Below, in pieces: positions 1-22,918 of a stretch of 45,146 bases of DNA. Both the position numbers and the translations under genes were made by a program. The stretch is from Chloroflexota bacterium (GTDB taxonomy: Bacteria > Chloroflexota > Dehalococcoidia > UBA2247 > RBG-13-53-26), in the NCBI GenBank assembly GCA_026389585.1, contig JAPLHP010000083.1:1-45146 (forward strand), given 5' to 3'. The notes beneath the pieces are model-generated. The model saw only the letters and a program-made list of their open reading frames with translations, did no database searches and was not told the DNA's origin. Position 1 is the stretch's first letter, and every line of letters starts with the position of its first letter.

Positions 1-348
1 AAGTAAAAGCAACTCTGCTTGCAATGTCTCCTTTTCGAGGTTTCCACCGTTTGCTGATATCTGAGTGATTCGTTTCAACAAATCGCTCACTTCTCCAGAT
101 TTGTGTTCGTATAGAGGCGGAACATTGAAAGCTGGGAAAGAGACCCCGTTCTCACCCTTGAAGTACTTGAGTGATTTCCTGAGGCGTTCTCGGTCTGTTT
201 CCGGTTCAAGCCTCGATATGCATCCCGTATGATCAAGGAACACACGAACTGTAGATCCGCTCGTCCTACACTCCACAAGATATCTGTTCGGTACCTGAGT
301 CTCAATGCCTCTCAGACTCTGCGACAGCTCGAAAAGTTCATTCAACAT
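1..348 (-). CDS. Candidate CRISPR type I large subunit (Cas8-like), 5' part, cut by window edge
   Basis: An open frame of 116 codons starts at ATG 348 and is still open at position 1, so only the N-terminus is visible. It begins MLNELFELSQSLRG and contains the stretch NGVSFPAFNVPPLY at about residues 74-87. The start lies inside the 3' end of cas5 with an 11-base overlap, which implies translational coupling. In type I-C loci the order is cas3-cas5-cas8-cas7, so position argues for the Cascade large subunit. I recognise no diagnostic Cas8c motif in this short piece, so the name rests mainly on context and on a vague resemblance to uncharacterised cas5-linked proteins. That the frame is real is fairly sure; the function is inferred. 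Confidence 0.55.
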   Translation of the reverse strand, partial: MLNELFELSQSLRGIETQVPNRYLVECRTSGSTVRVFLDHTGCISRLEPETDRERLRKSLKYFKGENGVSFPAFNVPPLYEHKSGEVSDLLKRITQISANGGNLEKETLQAELLLL

Positions 349-982
349 AACTCAGCACCCCCTTCTCAATCTTAACCTGCTGATCGAACTTCGGTTGCCA
401 CTGAGAACTCTTGCCATTAGGGAAGCAGCTTCGGAGCATGCTGGGAATCACCAGATTGATGTCCTCGCAAACTTGTGTCTCAGGGCGAAAGGGACCAAGA
501 TAGTCTGGGGTGAATTCCTTCCAACCAAGGCAAGGAGTAGAAAAGAACTGGCCGCGCTTGAGGCGGCGCTCAAAGACCTCCACATAGGCGTGAGCGCCAT
601 TTGTTGTCCCAACAGGCTGCAACCCTTGGCGGCCGTGCTTGCCATACTCCTTTGCGTCTGGCTTGACTGTTGCATGAAGCCGGTAACAGACGTCAACTAA
701 GACGGTTGCGATTAGCTGATAACTATTGCCCTTCTTCATTATTTTGCTTTTCCTGAGAGGTCCACCATAGTTCGTAGAGTAATCGTGGTACACAATCGGC
801 TTGCATATCTCCACTTTTGTCGGCACCACTTCCGCCCAGTCGCTCATAAGGATGCATTCGAAGATGCCTTTGGCAGCTCCAAAGGTCGGAGCGGGATAGC
901 TCACAGGTGTGTCCCCTGTATCCGGCCTAGTCCACATGGCTGTGGGGCCGGAGATTTGCAGTGAAATGGCGTAGTTGTCCAT
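338..982 (-). CDS. cas5: CRISPR-associated protein Cas5, type I-C-like
   Basis: A 214-residue protein. Cas5 is a RAMP subunit of the type I crRNA complex; in type I-C it also cuts the pre-crRNA and caps its 5' handle. The N-terminus reads ISGPTAMWTRPDTGDTPVSY followed by PAPTFGAAKGIFECIL at about residues 28-43, the typical Cas5 beta-strand and G/A-rich 'PT..AAKGI.E.I' helix. Length fits the 200-240 residues usual for I-C Cas5. I chose the start at 982 because AAAGGAGGT lies 6 bases upstream; an in-frame extension to 1009 has no such site. The reading frame is intact, unlike the cas3 stub just upstream, and it overlaps the next gene. No CRISPR repeats were seen in the window, so whether the system is functional depends on sequence to the left. 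Confidence 0.8.
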   Translation of the reverse strand: MDNYAISLQISGPTAMWTRPDTGDTPVSYPAPTFGAAKGIFECILMSDWAEVVPTKVEICKPIVYHDYSTNYGGPLRKSKIMKKGNSYQLIATVLVDVCYRLHATVKPDAKEYGKHGRQGLQPVGTTNGAHAYVEVFERRLKRGQFFSTPCLGWKEFTPDYLGPFRPETQVCEDINLVIPSMLRSCFPNGKSSQWQPKFDQQVKIEKGVLSYVE

Positions 983-1005
983 GTAACCTCCTTTCATCCT
1001 GTTTT

Positions 1006-1173
1006 TCAATCAGTGACCTCAACTGTGCCCTCCCCGCACCCGAACGCGTCGGCGAACTCAGGGGCTCTCGCGGCGGTTCCCTCAAGATGATCGCGGAGCA
1101 GATAACACCGGCCATCCTTAGAGGACTGTGCAAGAAGCTCAAGAAGTCTATCATGCTTGTCTTCTACGCTGTC
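1006..1173 (-). pseudogene. cas3 5'-end remnant (HD-domain N-terminus only)
   Basis: Reading the minus strand from a stop at 1174-1176 gives about 55 codons ending in TGA at 1006-1008. The core, LLRDHLEGTAARAPEFADAF followed by GCGE, matches the N-terminus of type I Cas3 HD nucleases, where a histidine-bearing 'L.DHL..TA..A..FA..FG' helix precedes the HD metal site. The match stops abruptly after GCGE: the HD motif, helicase motifs and C-terminus (some 700 residues) are absent, and no in-frame ATG/GTG/TTG start remains. The stub ends 24 bases before the cas5 start, where cas3 would be expected to end. The simplest reading is an internal deletion that removed nearly all of cas3 and spared the cas5 ribosome-binding site. 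Confidence 0.6.
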
Positions 1174-1960
1174 CTATCCCCGCGTCTGTCAGCTTTGACT
1201 CGTCCACTTCAGACGGTGAATCGAGGTCTGGCCTAAGTAGTTGCTCATACGACAATCAGCAAGCCGAAGTGTAACAGGCCACGGTGTGGTAATCAAGGTG
1301 GCGAGGCCAATATCGGAAATGGCCGTTCATTCGGAAGGATTCTTCCCTCAGCGCATCTCTGTTCAGATACCGTTCCATTCAGCCGACGTATGCGCTTGAG
1401 AGCAAGTGATCAGTTAAATTCGGCGATAGACCCTGGCGAGGGAAGGGGCTCCATTTCGGAGCAGGAGGCGAATCAGTAGGCCTGATCCCTGAAGATGACG
1501 GTGCATCTTTGCAGGCAGCGCTACAACTCTATTGAATGAAAGTCCATATTGTTTGGCTATGCACCTAAGAGCCTGATAAGGCCGAGCTTGGGGAAAAGAA
1601 GCTGGTGGCTCACCTTCTCGCAGTTCGGGCACAAATGACCGTCCATCATAGAGACAAGCCCGATTATGGGAAACTCCTTCAGCCTCAAAGAATCGATAGT
1701 GCGACTCTCGCCGAGATGCCTGAGTCATACCACCTCAATGGACGACTAGAAACATACGGATAGAGCCCCACTGCAAATATTGAAGATGTGATTTCGACTC
1801 TGCTTCATCACCCCACCATCGCCTTGTAGAACTTCAGGGTGTCTCAGTTCTTATCCCTGCTACCTCACCAGATGCTATATAAGAAACGATGCGCTGCGTT
1901 GCATAGGGAAGTTGAACCTAAACCCAAATGCCTTGTGCTGAGTAACACAAATCTATCCGC
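1174..1960. other. Region without a recognisable gene
   Basis: I see no convincing gene, RNA or direct-repeat array here. The longest frame is on the minus strand at 1414-1728 (104 codons, starting MTQASRRESHYRFFEAEG). It contains RPYQAL, faintly like the RPHQAL motif near the C-terminus of IS3/IS481-type integrases, but the rest does not support that and a one-frame overlap reads differently. It may be a scrambled mobile-element remnant. The stretch lies between decayed cas3 and a GNAT gene, consistent with an eroding accessory island. Confidence 0.4.
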
Positions 1961-2740: not shown

Positions 2741-3055
2741 ATTCTCAATGTCGGCATTGATCATGATACCGCTGCTTTTGCAGTAGAGAGCATCCGCCGC
2801 TGGTGGCAGTTGATGGGACAGGAGCGATACTTGCAGGCAAAACAATTGCCTATTACCGCTGATAGTGGGGGCAGCAATGGCTACCGGATAAAACTCTGGA
2901 AACTGGAACTACAGAAACTGGCGAACGAAATGGGCCTTTCCATCTCGGTCTCTCACTTGCCACCAGGAACCAGCAAGTGGAACAAGATTGAACACCGTTT
3001 GTTTTCATTCATCAGCCAGAATTGGCAGGGAAAGCCCCTGGTGAGTCATGAGGTC
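2741..3055 (+). pseudogene. ISAzo13-family transposase fragment
   Basis: The plus strand reads VGIDHDTAAFAVESIRRWW from 2750, then ITADSGGSNGYRIKLWKLEL and PPGTSKWNKIEHRLFSFISQ, ending at SHEV (3055). These are hallmark blocks of the DDE domain of ISAzo13 (Rhodopirellula-type) transposases: TADxGGSNG holds the second catalytic Asp and KIEHRLFSF the Glu. A stop at 2738-2740 closes the frame on the left and similarity ends abruptly at 3055, so about the first 250 residues and the last ~60 are missing. An in-frame ATG at 2810 could open a 261-codon frame, but its second half is antisense to the lipoprotein-like fragment and to glmS. No terminal inverted repeats were found. Non-functional relic. 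Confidence 0.8.
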
Positions 3056-3283
3056 TTCTTTGGATCCTCTGTCTTGCCAACCAGAATGGCATCCTCCTGC
3101 AAAGCCATTGGGTTATTCTCACCCCCGCCCTGTGGGGTCCACATGCCTATTCTTCTATACCTGGTCTCTTCATATCCCTTGACTACTAAATGCCTCTCTA
3201 GATCTTTGACATTAAAGTCACCACCGAGCACTGTCACTGATCCATCAGAACCAGAAGCTGATGTCCGTAGTTGTTCAGCCAAT
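3046..3283 (-). pseudogene. Fragment of a lipoprotein-like gene
   Basis: The minus-strand frame just past the glmS stop reads VTVLGGDFNVKDLERHLVVK, then GYEETRYRRIGMW and NNPMALQEDAILVGKTEDPK. This recalls secreted lipoprotein-like proteins with a 'GDF....R..L...GYE...Y.G.E.W......A.LED..I.VG' pattern, found in several Chloroflexota. There is no start codon outside glmS and no signal peptide; similarity ends at about 3056, exactly where the transposase fragment on the other strand ends. This suggests a gene interrupted by the element, followed by loss of both ends. The family match is from memory and tentative. Confidence 0.4.
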
Positions 3284-5053
3284 CTATTTGACAGTAACCG
3301 ATTTGGCGAGATTGCGAGGCTTGTCGGGATCCTTACCATGAGCCAGTGCCGAATAATAAGCCAGAAGCTGAAGCGGTACGACAGTTACCAAGGGCTGGAA
3401 AATCTCTTCCACCTGGGGAATCTCGAGCCAATCATCAAAAATCAGGTTGTTCTCCTCGGAAACCCCAATAACGAAAGCCCCGCGTGCTTTTGTTTCGTGC
3501 GCATTAGCAATGGTTTCATCGAACGTGTAATCCCTGGGGCAGATGACCACAACCGGTGTTCCCTTATCGATAAGGGCCAATGTGCCATGCTTTAACTCTC
3601 CGGCTGGCATGCCTTCAGCATGAACATAAGAGATCTCCTTCATTTTGAGCGCTCCCTCGGCAGCTATAGCGAAATTGATCCCTCTGGCTATGTAGTAGTA
3701 ATCACCCTTATCCTTTGTTTGCTGCGCCAATCCCCGTATCTTCTTACTGTTCTTGCTGAAACACTTCTCAATCTTGGGACATATATCCACTATCTTCCCC
3801 AAGCCTTCTTCCAACCTGTTAGCCATCGTGAAAGCCAACAGGTAAAAGATGGTTAGCTGGCTCATGAAGGTCTTGGTAGCAGCCACACCAACTTCAGGCC
3901 CGCAGTTGAGATAGAGGACTCTATCGCTCATCCTCGCCAGAGTAGACCCCACAGTATTAACCAGCGAATAGATAGTAGCCCCATTTTCCCTAGCCCTCTT
4001 CACACCTTGGATGACATCGGCGGTCTCGCCACTCTGAGAGATAGCTATCACCAGACTATTCTTGTCAATCGAATCGGAGAAGTACTGAAATTCGGAGGCC
4101 ATAATCACATCGCAGAACTTGCCACCCAGTTTGGAAAAGAGGTACCTCCCGACAAGGGCCGCATGTCTAGATGTACCACAAGCAGTTATGACCACCTGCC
4201 TTGATCTCAGAATGCCTATGGCCATCTCAAGAAGCTGCTTCTTATCCTGCATGGTAGCGCAGCGTATTGCATGGGGCTCTTCCATTATCTCTTTCATCAT
4301 AAAAAAGTCATAGTCTTGCTTGGTCGCCTCATCGCACTTCCAGTCGATCTCCTTAAACTCCTTCTGAATCCGCTGCCCCTCCGCATCGAGAAATGTAACA
4401 TCCTTGCTCAAGACCACGGTTTCCCCATCTTCCATAAAAGCAACCCGATTGGTCTCCTCCAGGAAAGCAAGTACATCACTGGCAATGAAGTTCCTTCCGC
4501 CACTCACTCCAACCACCAGAGGACTGTCTTTACGGCTGGCCACTATCTTCCCCGGTTCTTTTATTGAAATTGCAGCTAATGCATATGAACCTTTAAGCTT
4601 CTTTGTTGCCTTCAAGACAGCCTGTTCAAGAGAAACTCCCTCATCCATATACTCCTCAATGAGATGGGGGATTACTTCGGTATCAGTCTGAGATACAAAA
4701 AGATGGTTCGGCTCAAGCCAGCTACGAAGCTCTTGATAGTTCTCTATGATTCCATTGTGAACCACTGCAATCTCTCTTTTGCAGTCGAAGTGAGGGTGAG
4801 CATTTATGGCTGTGACCTCGCCGTGTGTAGCCCAGCGAACGTGCCCAATCCCCGTACTCCCCGGGAGATCATCCAGGTGGCGTTTTTCTCGTACCTGATC
4901 TAGATTGCCCACGTCTTTTTCAGCACAAATCTTGCCGTTGGCAATTGTGGCAATGCCCGCAGAATCATAACCCCTATACTCCAGATTCTTCAGCGCCTTG
5001 ACCAGGAAGGGAGCGGCAGGGCTATCTCCGACACAGCCGATTATTCCACACAT
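3284..5053 (-). CDS. glmS: Glutamine--fructose-6-phosphate aminotransferase (isomerizing)
   Basis: A 589-residue protein making glucosamine-6-phosphate from fructose-6-phosphate and glutamine, the first step to UDP-GlcNAc. The N-terminal glutaminase domain starts MCGIIGCVG with Cys2 as nucleophile (after Met removal Cys1) and has GHVRWATHG and HNGIIENY. Two SIS sugar-isomerase domains follow, with ACGTSRHAA and SQSGETADV in the first and the C-terminal signature DPDKPRNLAKSVTV. The length is normal (about 600). The ATG directly follows the stop of the GlmU-like gene with no spacer, so the three glm genes form one transcription unit. Downstream sequence is degraded. Confident call. Confidence 0.97.
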   Translation of the reverse strand: MCGIIGCVGDSPAAPFLVKALKNLEYRGYDSAGIATIANGKICAEKDVGNLDQVREKRHLDDLPGSTGIGHVRWATHGEVTAINAHPHFDCKREIAVVHNGIIENYQELRSWLEPNHLFVSQTDTEVIPHLIEEYMDEGVSLEQAVLKATKKLKGSYALAAISIKEPGKIVASRKDSPLVVGVSGGRNFIASDVLAFLEETNRVAFMEDGETVVLSKDVTFLDAEGQRIQKEFKEIDWKCDEATKQDYDFFMMKEIMEEPHAIRCATMQDKKQLLEMAIGILRSRQVVITACGTSRHAALVGRYLFSKLGGKFCDVIMASEFQYFSDSIDKNSLVIAISQSGETADVIQGVKRARENGATIYSLVNTVGSTLARMSDRVLYLNCGPEVGVAATKTFMSQLTIFYLLAFTMANRLEEGLGKIVDICPKIEKCFSKNSKKIRGLAQQTKDKGDYYYIARGINFAIAAEGALKMKEISYVHAEGMPAGELKHGTLALIDKGTPVVVICPRDYTFDETIANAHETKARGAFVIGVSEENNLIFDDWLEIPQVEEIFQPLVTVVPLQLLAYYSALAHGKDPDKPRNLAKSVTVK

Positions 5054-9571: not shown

Positions 9572-10021
9572 CTACATCTGGATAGCTTCTTCCAGGAATA
9601 AGTCTAGATCAAGATCTTCATCATCCCCAATCCGCTGATCCAGGCGAGACATGACCTCCACCAGACGCCGGTTGATGACATAGTGTTTGATGGTGGTATC
9701 TACCTGAGGGCAAACCAAGACACACGCATAACACTGGTCACAATCCCCACCAACCGTACTTTCCAGGGCCATAGATGTACGCTGCTCCGTCTTATCACGA
9801 CGATATGGTTCACGAAACAAAAAGGGGCAAATGTCTATGCAGTTGCCACAGCCAATACACTCCTTGTGTCCCGTGATATCCTCAGTTATGTTAAGTGCAT
9901 GACCAGGATTGAAACCACTGGAAAGAAGTCGACACCGGGCTACTGGAGGACTCTTCGTGTTCAGAATTTCATTCAGAATAGACTCTATTTCCTTGACATT
10001 TACCTGAATACGCTGAGGCAT
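9572..10021 (-). CDS. Dicluster 4Fe-4S ferredoxin-like protein
   Basis: A 149-residue cytoplasmic protein with two 4Fe-4S motifs: Cys55, 58, 61 and 65 (CIGCGNCIDICP) and Cys94, 97, 100 and 104 (CDQCYACVLVCP). The ~50 residues before and ~40 after, ending in an acidic tail (DDEDLDLDLFLEE), are not recognisable. I took the ATG at 10021 with GGGGTG just upstream; a TTG at 10033 would add four residues. It lies 15 bases after the fumarate-reductase-like flavoprotein and 9 before the acyl-CoA dehydrogenase, so it probably shuttles electrons between them or docks to the complex. Confidence 0.82.
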   Translation of the reverse strand: MPQRIQVNVKEIESILNEILNTKSPPVARCRLLSSGFNPGHALNITEDITGHKECIGCGNCIDICPFLFREPYRRDKTEQRTSMALESTVGGDCDQCYACVLVCPQVDTTIKHYVINRRLVEVMSRLDQRIGDDEDLDLDLFLEEAIQM

Positions 10022-10036
10022 GCTACACCCCAAATC

Positions 10037-11698
10037 CTAAGTCAGCTTTATCCGATGAGCAGTTAATGCCTGTGCACTGTAGTCGGGCAGATAATCAGGT
10101 ATTGGCCTGGCATAATCAGGTAACAACAATGGGGATACCGGCCGTAACTTGGACAAGCCAGCCCGTTCAAGATCCTTCTGCCAGCAGCGAACGTGCTCCA
10201 GTGTCAGTGAGCCTGACTTCACCTCTTTGCTCCAGTTAGCCGCTGCCCTGCCTGCCCTTCTTCCAAAGACAAAGATATCCAGTGTTGAGTTGCCTATGAG
10301 CCGATTACTGCCATGCACCCCACCTTCACATTCGCCAGCGGCAAACAGCCCCGGTACAGTGGTTGCCCCCTCAGTGTTAATCTTAATCCCACCATTCTGA
10401 TAATGCAGCGTAGGATATATCAGCATCGGCTCCCTGGCTATGTCAATGTTGAAGCGGCCAAACTGCCGCACCATAGCCGGTAATTCCCGTGCGACCGTTC
10501 CCTCACCACGTAACATGTCAATCATCGGTGAATCCAGCCAAACACCAACCTGCCCTGCTGGCGTTTTTACACCCTTTTGACGTTCCTGGCATTCCCGAAT
10601 GATCGCTGCAGCTACCACATCCCTCGGCTCCAAAGGCATGATGAACTGTTCTCCATCAACGTTAACTAACTGCGCCCCCAAGCTTCTCACTTTTTCAGTA
10701 ACCAACTGTCCCAGAATCTGCATCGGATAGGCTGCGCCAGTGGGATGATACTGCATAGTATCCATGAAAATCAGTTGAGCACCTACTCGATAAGCCAGTA
10801 CCAGTCCGTCGGCAGTGGCTCCATAGTGATTAGTGGTCGGGAAACCCTGGATATGAAGACGCCCCATACCACCGGTAGCCATGACTACAGATTTGGCCCG
10901 GACCATGGTCAATTCGTTGGTCTCCAGATTCACCAATACCGCTCCACATACCTGCCCCTTATCATCCATCAACAACTCTACTGCAGGTGAAAATTCCAGA
11001 TAATCAATTTTCCTATTCCTTATTTCGTCGCGTAGAACACGCATTTCCTCCAAGCCAGTGTAGTCTCTTGCTGAGTGCAATCTTAATCTTGATGCACCGC
11101 CACCAGACAGCTCATGCATGGTGCCATCCGCCATCTTATCCCAGTTGACACCCAACGTTCCCAGCCACTTGATTACCATCGGTGCATCTTTTACCAGGGC
11201 CTCCACCAATTCAGGCACGTTGGCAAAGTGCCCCCCACCCATGGTATCCAGGTAGTGAATAGCCAGGGAGTCATTGGGCCTGTCGGCCGCCTGTGTGCCT
11301 GCCTGAGCTCCTACAGTATTGCAGTCACCCAGCCGCAGCTTAGTTGTCAATAAGACTTTAGCACCGTTTTCTTGAGCCAGAAGCGCTGCCGTTGCTCCAG
11401 CACCCCCACCACCAATCACCAGTACATCCACATCATAGTCAACCCTACCGAGGTCAATCTTATCAGGATCAAGACAGCTATTACCTTCCAGCAGATCAGC
11501 CACTTCGTCCGGGGTATAGTCTCCCTTGTTCGGGCCTAGTGCCAGTTGGCGCATCTTTCCCGCCACATAATCAGGATGATACCTCTGCAGCAAAGGAGTC
11601 TTCTGCTCGTCGCCGAGGCGAAGAAGGCTCTCTTTCAGCCGCCTCTCCCGAGTAGCCTCTACCTTGCGGATACTCTCTTCCATATGAGCAGGATACAT
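10037..11698 (-). CDS. Fumarate reductase/succinate dehydrogenase flavoprotein-type subunit
   Basis: A 553-residue FAD protein of the FrdA/SdhA/L-aspartate oxidase family. About 90 residues precede the dinucleotide-binding motif VLVIGGGGAGATAALLAQEN. Typical FrdA/SdhA elements follow: MQYHPTGAAYPM, and GLFAAGECEGGVHGSNRLIG (FAD and active-site region). The N-terminal extension (including YHPDYVAGKMRQLALGPNKG) is not part of classical SdhA and has no cysteines; similar extensions occur in uncharacterised anaerobe homologues. The FeS subunit gene lies 22 bases upstream; no cytochrome b anchor is nearby, so the complex looks soluble or uses the CCG protein for quinone contact. Succinate/fumarate is favoured by context but not proven. 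Confidence 0.87.
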   Translation of the reverse strand: MYPAHMEESIRKVEATRERRLKESLLRLGDEQKTPLLQRYHPDYVAGKMRQLALGPNKGDYTPDEVADLLEGNSCLDPDKIDLGRVDYDVDVLVIGGGGAGATAALLAQENGAKVLLTTKLRLGDCNTVGAQAGTQAADRPNDSLAIHYLDTMGGGHFANVPELVEALVKDAPMVIKWLGTLGVNWDKMADGTMHELSGGGASRLRLHSARDYTGLEEMRVLRDEIRNRKIDYLEFSPAVELLMDDKGQVCGAVLVNLETNELTMVRAKSVVMATGGMGRLHIQGFPTTNHYGATADGLVLAYRVGAQLIFMDTMQYHPTGAAYPMQILGQLVTEKVRSLGAQLVNVDGEQFIMPLEPRDVVAAAIIRECQERQKGVKTPAGQVGVWLDSPMIDMLRGEGTVARELPAMVRQFGRFNIDIAREPMLIYPTLHYQNGGIKINTEGATTVPGLFAAGECEGGVHGSNRLIGNSTLDIFVFGRRAGRAAANWSKEVKSGSLTLEHVRCWQKDLERAGLSKLRPVSPLLLPDYARPIPDYLPDYSAQALTAHRIKLT

Positions 11699-21547: not shown

Positions 21548-22468
21548 GTGGAAAACTTCGCGATATATGTTCCCAGGCTAGTGCCCCAAAAGGACTACTT
21601 TGCCCCCGGCCATCGTGCTTGCATAGGCTGCGGAGAAGCCCTAGCAGTAAGATTGGTAACCAAGGCACTCGGCAGAGAGGTCATCATATCCAATGCCACC
21701 GGATGCATGGAGATCGTTTCCTCGCCGTTTCCCACTACCTCGTGGCGAGTCCCCTGGATACATACACTTTTCGAGAATGCCTCGGCAGTTGCCTCCGGTA
21801 TTGAAGCCGCCCTGAAGATACTCAATGAGAAAGGCGCCAGAGCCAAGATGCCGAAGGTAGTGGCTATGGGCGGGGACGGGGCAACATTAGACATAGGGAT
21901 TCAATCGCTCTCAGGCGCCTGGGAGAGAGGACACAACTTCCTCTATGTTTGCTTCGACAACGAAGCCTATATGAATACCGGTATACAGAGATCCAGCGGT
22001 ACTCCTTTTGGAGCCGCTACTACTACCTCGCCAGCTGGTAAACTGAGCATTGGCCAGGCCACCTGGAAGAAGAACATGCCAGCTATCGCAATAGCACACG
22101 ACATCCCTTATGTGGCCACAGCATGTCCCAGCTACCCATTCGACTTGATGGAAAAGGTCACCAAGGCAGTGGCAACTCACGGTCCATCATACCTGCATGT
22201 GCTCTCACCTTGTCCTACGGGTTGGCGTTACCCCACCGACCTCAGTATCAGGCTGGGGCGTTTGGCCGTTGAGACAGGCGTTTTCCCACTCTACGAGGTT
22301 GAGAACGGCAAATACAGATTGAACTTCGATTCCTCCAAACTCCGGCCGGTGCGCGACTATCTGACGCCACAAGGCAGATTCCGCCATCTCCCCAAAGAAG
22401 AGATAGAACGAATACAAGAGGGAGTAAATAAGGAATATCAAAAATTGAAGAGGAAGGTGAAGGCTTAG
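21548..22468 (+). CDS. porB: Pyruvate:ferredoxin oxidoreductase beta subunit
   Basis: A 306-residue TPP-binding subunit. HRACIGCGEALAVRLV carries cluster cysteines near the N-terminus; GGDGATLDIGIQSLSGAWER is the TPP diphosphate/Mg motif; YMNTGIQRSSGTPFGAATTT is typical of pyruvate enzymes rather than of 2-oxoglutarate enzymes (KorB). It begins with GTG immediately after the porA stop TAA, with no spacer, and its stop TAG is followed at once by the GTG of the next gene. Confidence 0.93.
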   Translation: MENFAIYVPRLVPQKDYFAPGHRACIGCGEALAVRLVTKALGREVIISNATGCMEIVSSPFPTTSWRVPWIHTLFENASAVASGIEAALKILNEKGARAKMPKVVAMGGDGATLDIGIQSLSGAWERGHNFLYVCFDNEAYMNTGIQRSSGTPFGAATTTSPAGKLSIGQATWKKNMPAIAIAHDIPYVATACPSYPFDLMEKVTKAVATHGPSYLHVLSPCPTGWRYPTDLSIRLGRLAVETGVFPLYEVENGKYRLNFDSSKLRPVRDYLTPQGRFRHLPKEEIERIQEGVNKEYQKLKRKVKA

Positions 22469-22918
22469 GTGGCAACCAAGATACAGGCGATAGTGGACAG
22501 ATATGAAAGTGACAAGGGTCAACTGGTCTCTATTCTGCAAGACATCCAGACCGAGTACTACTACCTCCCAAAGGAATCACTGGAGGAGGTGGTGAAGCTT
22601 CTTAATGTCCCCATGAGTCAAGTATACGGCGTGGCTACATTCTTTAAGGCCTTCAGCCTGACTCCAAGAGGCCGACACTTGATCAAAGTCTGCCTGGGTA
22701 CGGCCTGCTACGTCAGGGGGGCAAATAGAGTTGTGGATAAAATGGAACTCGACCTGGGGATCAAGAGGAAGGAAACAACGAAAGACCTCCGGTTCACCCT
22801 CGAGACGGTCAACTGTGTCGGATGTTGCGCTCTTGGCCCGATGGTAATGATAGACGATAAGTACCATGGACAGATGTCAAGCGATAAAGTCAGCTCGCTG
22901 CTGGCGAAGTATGAATGA
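22469..22918 (+). CDS. NADH dehydrogenase subunit E-like 2Fe-2S protein
   Basis: A 149-residue thioredoxin-like ferredoxin with one 2Fe-2S cluster. The ligands follow the NuoE spacing: Cys75 and Cys80 (KVCLGTACYVRG), then Cys116 and Cys120 (NCVGCCALGPM). It is also the typical first subunit of NAD-linked hydrogenases and formate dehydrogenases (HoxE, HndA). The GTG start directly follows the porB stop and its end overlaps the next start (ATGA), so it is cotranslated with the por genes. No hydrogenase or formate dehydrogenase catalytic subunit is nearby, so por appears to be its partner. Confidence 0.92.
   Translation: MATKIQAIVDRYESDKGQLVSILQDIQTEYYYLPKESLEEVVKLLNVPMSQVYGVATFFKAFSLTPRGRHLIKVCLGTACYVRGANRVVDKMELDLGIKRKETTKDLRFTLETVNCVGCCALGPMVMIDDKYHGQMSSDKVSSLLAKYE

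Follow-up and report, generated by a model that had tools for sequence, protein, structure and literature searches.

The window, meaning the whole stretch of 45,146 nucleotides analysed here, is the left end of contig C83 in a Chloroflexota genome (1.93 Mb in 103 contigs, 95% complete) and begins at base 1 of that contig. Read leftwards on the minus strand, it carries mobile-element debris, a Cas3-like frame (1173-1006), cas5 (982-338) and the beginning of a cas8 (116 codons) that is cut by the contig end (Table 1). In agreement with the initial annotation, cas5 is intact, being open throughout and overlapping cas8 by 11 bases (338-348). The perfect ribosome-binding site reported ahead of it is present as AGGAGG. 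cas5 starts 23 bases past the stop codon of the Cas3-like frame. Its product matches TIGR01876 (E 1.3e-10) with 41.8 bits, below the curated cut-off of 85, PF09704 above the cut-off (E 7.7e-10) and the PADLOC model Cas5c (8.8e-22). The start of cas8 matches a sole family, Cas8c PDLC01562 of PADLOC (2.3e-10). Pieces of the debris at 1579-1846 recur at 11 further sites of the genome with 75-95% identity. A fragment of an ISAzo13-type transposase (PF07592, 8e-36; 2810-3058), sharing one frame with unrelated sequence, lies between the cas genes and glmS; glmS itself occupies 3284-5053, and its 3' end (3284) lies approximately 2.1 kb from the Cas3-like frame.

Table 1 Features at the cas locus of the window
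Feature	Position	Strand	Basis or remark
Cas3 N-terminal remnant, the scar proper	1030..1134	-	Approximately residues 10-46 of canonical I-C Cas3; HMM built with the window left out
Open frame around the remnant, stop to stop, without in-frame ATG/GTG/TTG	1006..1173	-	Translation
Junction: tail unrelated to Cas3 (GTVEVTD*), then 23 bases of spacer up to cas5	983..1029	-	Sequence; Cas3 similarity stops at 1030
cas5 ribosome-binding site AGGAGG	987..992	-	Sequence
cas5, intact (Cas5c, cas5-first I-C branch)	338..982	-	TIGR01876, PF09704, PADLOC Cas5c
cas8c N-terminus, 116 aa, running off the contig end	1..348	-	PADLOC PDLC01562; tblastn against branch-locus cas8
Multicopy debris that precedes the stub and marks the outer flank of the locus	1579..1846	.	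Repeats within the genome

The Cas3-like frame (1173-1009, stop codon 1006-1008) translates as VEDKHDRLLELLAQSSKDGRCYLLRDHLEGTAARAPEFADAFGCGEGTVEVTD*. It contains no in-frame ATG, GTG or TTG and hence, by the usual rules, is no translatable gene. A profile was built from the N-termini of canonical I-C Cas3 proteins together with stubs of other genomes, the window being left out of the build; with it, the minus-strand segment 1030-1134 scores 34.8 bits, as compared to a maximum of 9.5 among 2992 dinucleotide shuffles. The match ends ahead of the HD motif, which concurs with the abruptly ending Cas3 N-terminus described from the letters alone. The Cas3 HMM search proposed for this frame succeeded with the purpose-built profile, whereas curated single-family libraries did not detect the stub at its short length; a search of the PDB gave no significant match. 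When 393 genomes of the class were queried with the first 110 amino acids of an intact Cas3 (G012, a member of the same order), the window was matched at 1030-1137 on the minus strand (E 2.7e-7, 53% over query residues 6-41 only), most of the other matches falling in frames some 730-840 residues long. The failure of the standard libraries might suggest a chance similarity or a fragment of some other HD protein, but this has virtually no probability left, being refuted by the shuffle test and by the class-wide search, which recovers the stub at the expected place and strand. The intact leading cas3 of canonical I-C loci is thus represented in the window by residues 10-46 or so, devoid of a start codon.

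Eighty loci encoding relatives of the window Cas5 (47-61% identity) were retrieved. The gene order of this branch is cas5-cas8-cas7-cas3-cas4-cas1-cas2, while canonical I-C loci in the class of the window have cas3 in first place. The succession cas8, cas7, cas3, cas4 is kept in all 50 branch loci in which the four genes occur together. A long cas3 (450 residues or more) lies downstream of cas7 in each of the 66 branch loci whose sequence continues for 6 kb or more to the right of cas5, and these include all stub-bearing loci of that extent. Looking only upstream of cas5 makes many branch loci seem to lack cas3; the stub as the sign of a Cas3-less branch was rejected by the neighbourhood survey. 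The branch proteins of locus L051 mostly score under the NCBIfam I-C cut-offs, and its Cas8 matches PDLC01562 with 1e-136. In the window, a cas8 matching this same family is directly preceded and overlapped by a branch-type cas5, and both genes belong to the cas5-first I-C branch. The window Cas5 and Cas8 form a long branch with an uncertain placement in the tree. Literature searches gave no earlier description of the cas5-first I-C order; one may exist.

Scanning upstream of the branch loci with canonical I-C profiles revealed Cas3 N-termini ahead of cas5 in L033, L051, L066, L071, L078, L086, L088, L094, L099, L104 and L105 as well as in the window, and shorter cas3 fragments were recognized by eye in L106, where the scar comprises 19 codons, and in L076. 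Such stubs occur in a minority of branch loci, most having no detectable remnant, and in L092 and L052 the N-terminus of a canonical cas5 occupies the place usually held by the stub. The window stub is 54-57% identical to the intact canonical Cas3 proteins of L113, L116 and L112. In L033, from the same class (Dehalococcoidia), the stub shares 85% protein identity with the intact cas3 of L113 and, at the DNA level, 82.5% over 194 bp, after which the similarity stops. The stub derives from the canonical I-C lineage and not from the cas3 of the branch. An origin of the stubs by copying of the cas3 downstream in the respective locus was rejected, identities reaching at most about 35% with few matches. 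Descent of every stub from one ancestral scar was likewise rejected, as the tree requires about six changes; most stubs fall in one mainly Nitrospirota group, and L033 was omitted from this tree because its cas5 is interrupted.

Several further observations concern individual loci. L033 is part of a public record of a metagenome-assembled Dehalococcoidia genome, and the same locus is found in a relative from that class (G032, L011). Its cas5 (10001-10640) contains an in-frame TGA that splits it into frames of 109 and 88 residues, possibly a pseudogene or a sequencing error, beside a full cas8-cas7-cas3-cas4-cas1 set and an array. L032 has two separate short pieces resembling the Cas3 N-terminus (LAHVRR..DDGSFAIH.LEEHLR) upstream of one cas5, at about -2355 and -130. 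On contig C57 of genome G037 (22085-22510), a tandem pair of Cas3 N-terminus matches precedes a full-length cas3 frame, apparently a duplicated cas3 5' end. Two short cas3 N-termini from the same class were set aside, one (G016) being clipped by a contig end and the other (G157) a separate truncation; branch cas5 was not found in either genome.

The stub is most likely the left boundary scar of an effector replacement that took place in situ at the window locus. A remnant of the old effector, a Cas3 of canonical lineage, stands directly beside the genes of the new one, and the family relatives of the window, L106 and L107, show how the two parts of such loci differ in affiliation. Their cas1 and cas4 are 79-82% and 66-72% identical, respectively, to those of the canonical locus L112, which ranks first or close to first among all comparisons, is about as close to them as L106 is to L107, and is closer than branch loci elsewhere. 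Their 32-nt repeat is also of the same type as that of L112. In contrast, their cas7 and cas3 share approximately 23-30% identity with canonical counterparts and 43-52% with branch loci elsewhere. Two other loci look like intermediates of the swap. L060 (1-14838) contains a canonical cas3-cas5-cas8-cas7 set, its cas3 being clipped by the contig end so that the C-terminal part is seen, followed directly by a branch cassette and a single shared cas4-cas1-cas2 with array. L079 retains the cas3 N-terminus together with residues 409-584 of cas3 and 48-282 of cas7 from the canonical set.

In the proposed route, a canonical locus of the order cas3-cas5-cas8-cas7-cas4-cas1-cas2-array would have received a branch cassette (cas5-cas8-cas7-cas3) between the start of the canonical cas3 and cas4. 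This probably occurred in two steps, in which the cassette would insert beside cas4, after which a deletion would remove the old effector from inside the old cas3 up to the new cas5, so that the first few dozen codons of cas3 survive. Since scars are of unequal length in the closest relatives, the swaps may represent several separate events. By inference from these relatives, the same history would apply to the window locus, and its downstream cas3 would lie off the contig. The new cassette would act as an ordinary I-C system: Cas5, Cas8 and Cas7 bind crRNA and target, as is established for I-C systems, and the Cas3 that the cassette itself encodes, behind cas7, would cut.

Why the scar persists is a separate matter. 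L099 is a mosaic that resembles L088 to the left of the HD-motif codons (96%) and L105 just to their right (96-100%), the switch lying less than 160 bases from a contig end, so that an assembly error is possible there. L104 resembles L066 across the stub junction and into cas5 for about 20 codons, and L105 from there on. None of 20000 shuffles of the informative sites reached the pattern of either locus, and both mosaics also count in favour of the swap. Mosaics of this type, switching in the stub or in the first cas5 codons, are what would be predicted if the cas3 5' stub persisted as a homology arm, a standing docking site instead of a passive relic. Successive cassettes would then be exchanged by recombination between the stub as left arm and cas4-cas1-cas2 as right arm; we put this forward tentatively, as a possibility that is on balance doubtful. 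Also compatible with the swap is the idea that the stub is a kept element, either a small leader ORF or DNA carrying the promoter and 5' leader of the operon. What survives is mostly the 5' portion of the leading gene, upstream of which a promoter would lie, and the stubs of L051 and L078 differ with dN 0.070 and dS 0.307 while second codon positions are unchanged; this one pair, with only 13 differences, is suggestive of a functional peptide at most. As the window stub lacks a start codon, that of L066 has an in-frame stop and those of L088 and L104 bear insertions, a kept element appears unlikely.

The initial annotation had taken the stub for what is left of the cas3 of this system, and accordingly considered that the nuclease-helicase had been deleted and the rest was decaying, or that a nuclease-less Cascade was being kept. 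The truncation beside an intact cas5 is real, but the truncated gene is not the cas3 that serves this effector type, and with a working cas3 downstream of cas7 in 66 out of 66 branch loci neither reading is supported. For a dying pseudogene cluster speak the lack of a start codon in the stub, the mobile-element debris upstream and, in L033, a cas5 with an in-frame stop. In the window, however, cas5 is full length with a strong ribosome-binding site and a retained overlap with cas8, cas8 is open up to the contig end, and elsewhere the same stub layout adjoins complete cas operons and arrays; decay is therefore improbable.

Loss of cas3 with retention of the binding complex, for instance for silencing or inside a CRISPR-associated transposon (CAST), would agree with the intact cas5 and with the search of the window's own genome for a cas3 elsewhere, which gave no Cas3-core match over the cut-off in a 95%-complete assembly and one weak match in a frame of 1118 amino acids. 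CASTs of subtype I-C are known, glmS is the usual attachment site of Tn7 and Tn7-like elements, and the 3' end of glmS lies about 2 kb away. Yet I-C cas7, I-C cas1 and an I-C-type repeat were not found in the assembly either. The cas7 and cas3 of the branch locus L051 match the models used in these searches, so that such genes would probably have been seen; their joint absence with cas1 and the repeats points to a contig break instead of a loss of cas3 alone. Because the window starts at contig base 1, the intact cas3 expected further left cannot be seen, and neither can the cas7, cas4, cas1 and array of the window locus. Transposition genes were not detected either, as no match to TniQ or to the Mu-transposase C-terminal domain of TnsB-type transposases was obtained in this genome, in a search that has no positive control since the control genomes likewise gave none; a CAST is considered improbable. 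Together with the downstream cas3 of the branch loci, this makes a nuclease-less Cascade highly improbable. Most likely, the window locus is an ordinary I-C system with an informative scar, and there is no good evidence for a Cascade without nuclease.

A truncated cas3 beside intact Cascade genes is easily misread as a nuclease-less system. In our case it is most likely the fossil of a replaced effector and tells little about the state of the nuclease. Such a scar provides a searchable mark for effector swaps and for their exact left boundary, and surveys of scars could reveal the frequency of such exchanges and the route by which bacteria swap CRISPR effectors while keeping their spacer memory.

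Canonical I-C systems (cas3-cas5-cas8c-cas7-cas4-cas1-cas2) are the source of the stub, and the window shares with them the order and overlap of cas5 and cas8, with no cas6 seen. Unlike in these systems, the window Cas5 falls under the I-C cut-off, Cas8 matches PDLC01562 only, and the relatives of the window encode cas3 after cas7. With the Cas3-less type I variants, which comprise CASTs and others (PMC12669027), the locus has in common an assembled part without a visible full cas3. It differs from them in that transposition genes were not found in the genome in the control-less search, all relatives with enough flank have cas3, and the stub comes from another cas3 lineage. Replacement of the effector while the adaptation genes stay where they were is documented for other subtypes of type I (Hudaiberdiev et al. 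2017, PMC5704561; Koonin and Makarova 2019, PMC6452270). There, the effector genes change while cas4, cas1 and the repeat type stay, as in the family relatives L106 and L107, and the boundaries can be read at the nucleotide level, as in the present case. The within-subtype analysis excerpted from the former study deals with I-A, I-B, I-D and I-U, whereas here both effector sets are I-C-like, and, unlike the cases in that excerpt, the left boundary is marked here by a truncated canonical cas3 (Hudaiberdiev et al. 2017).
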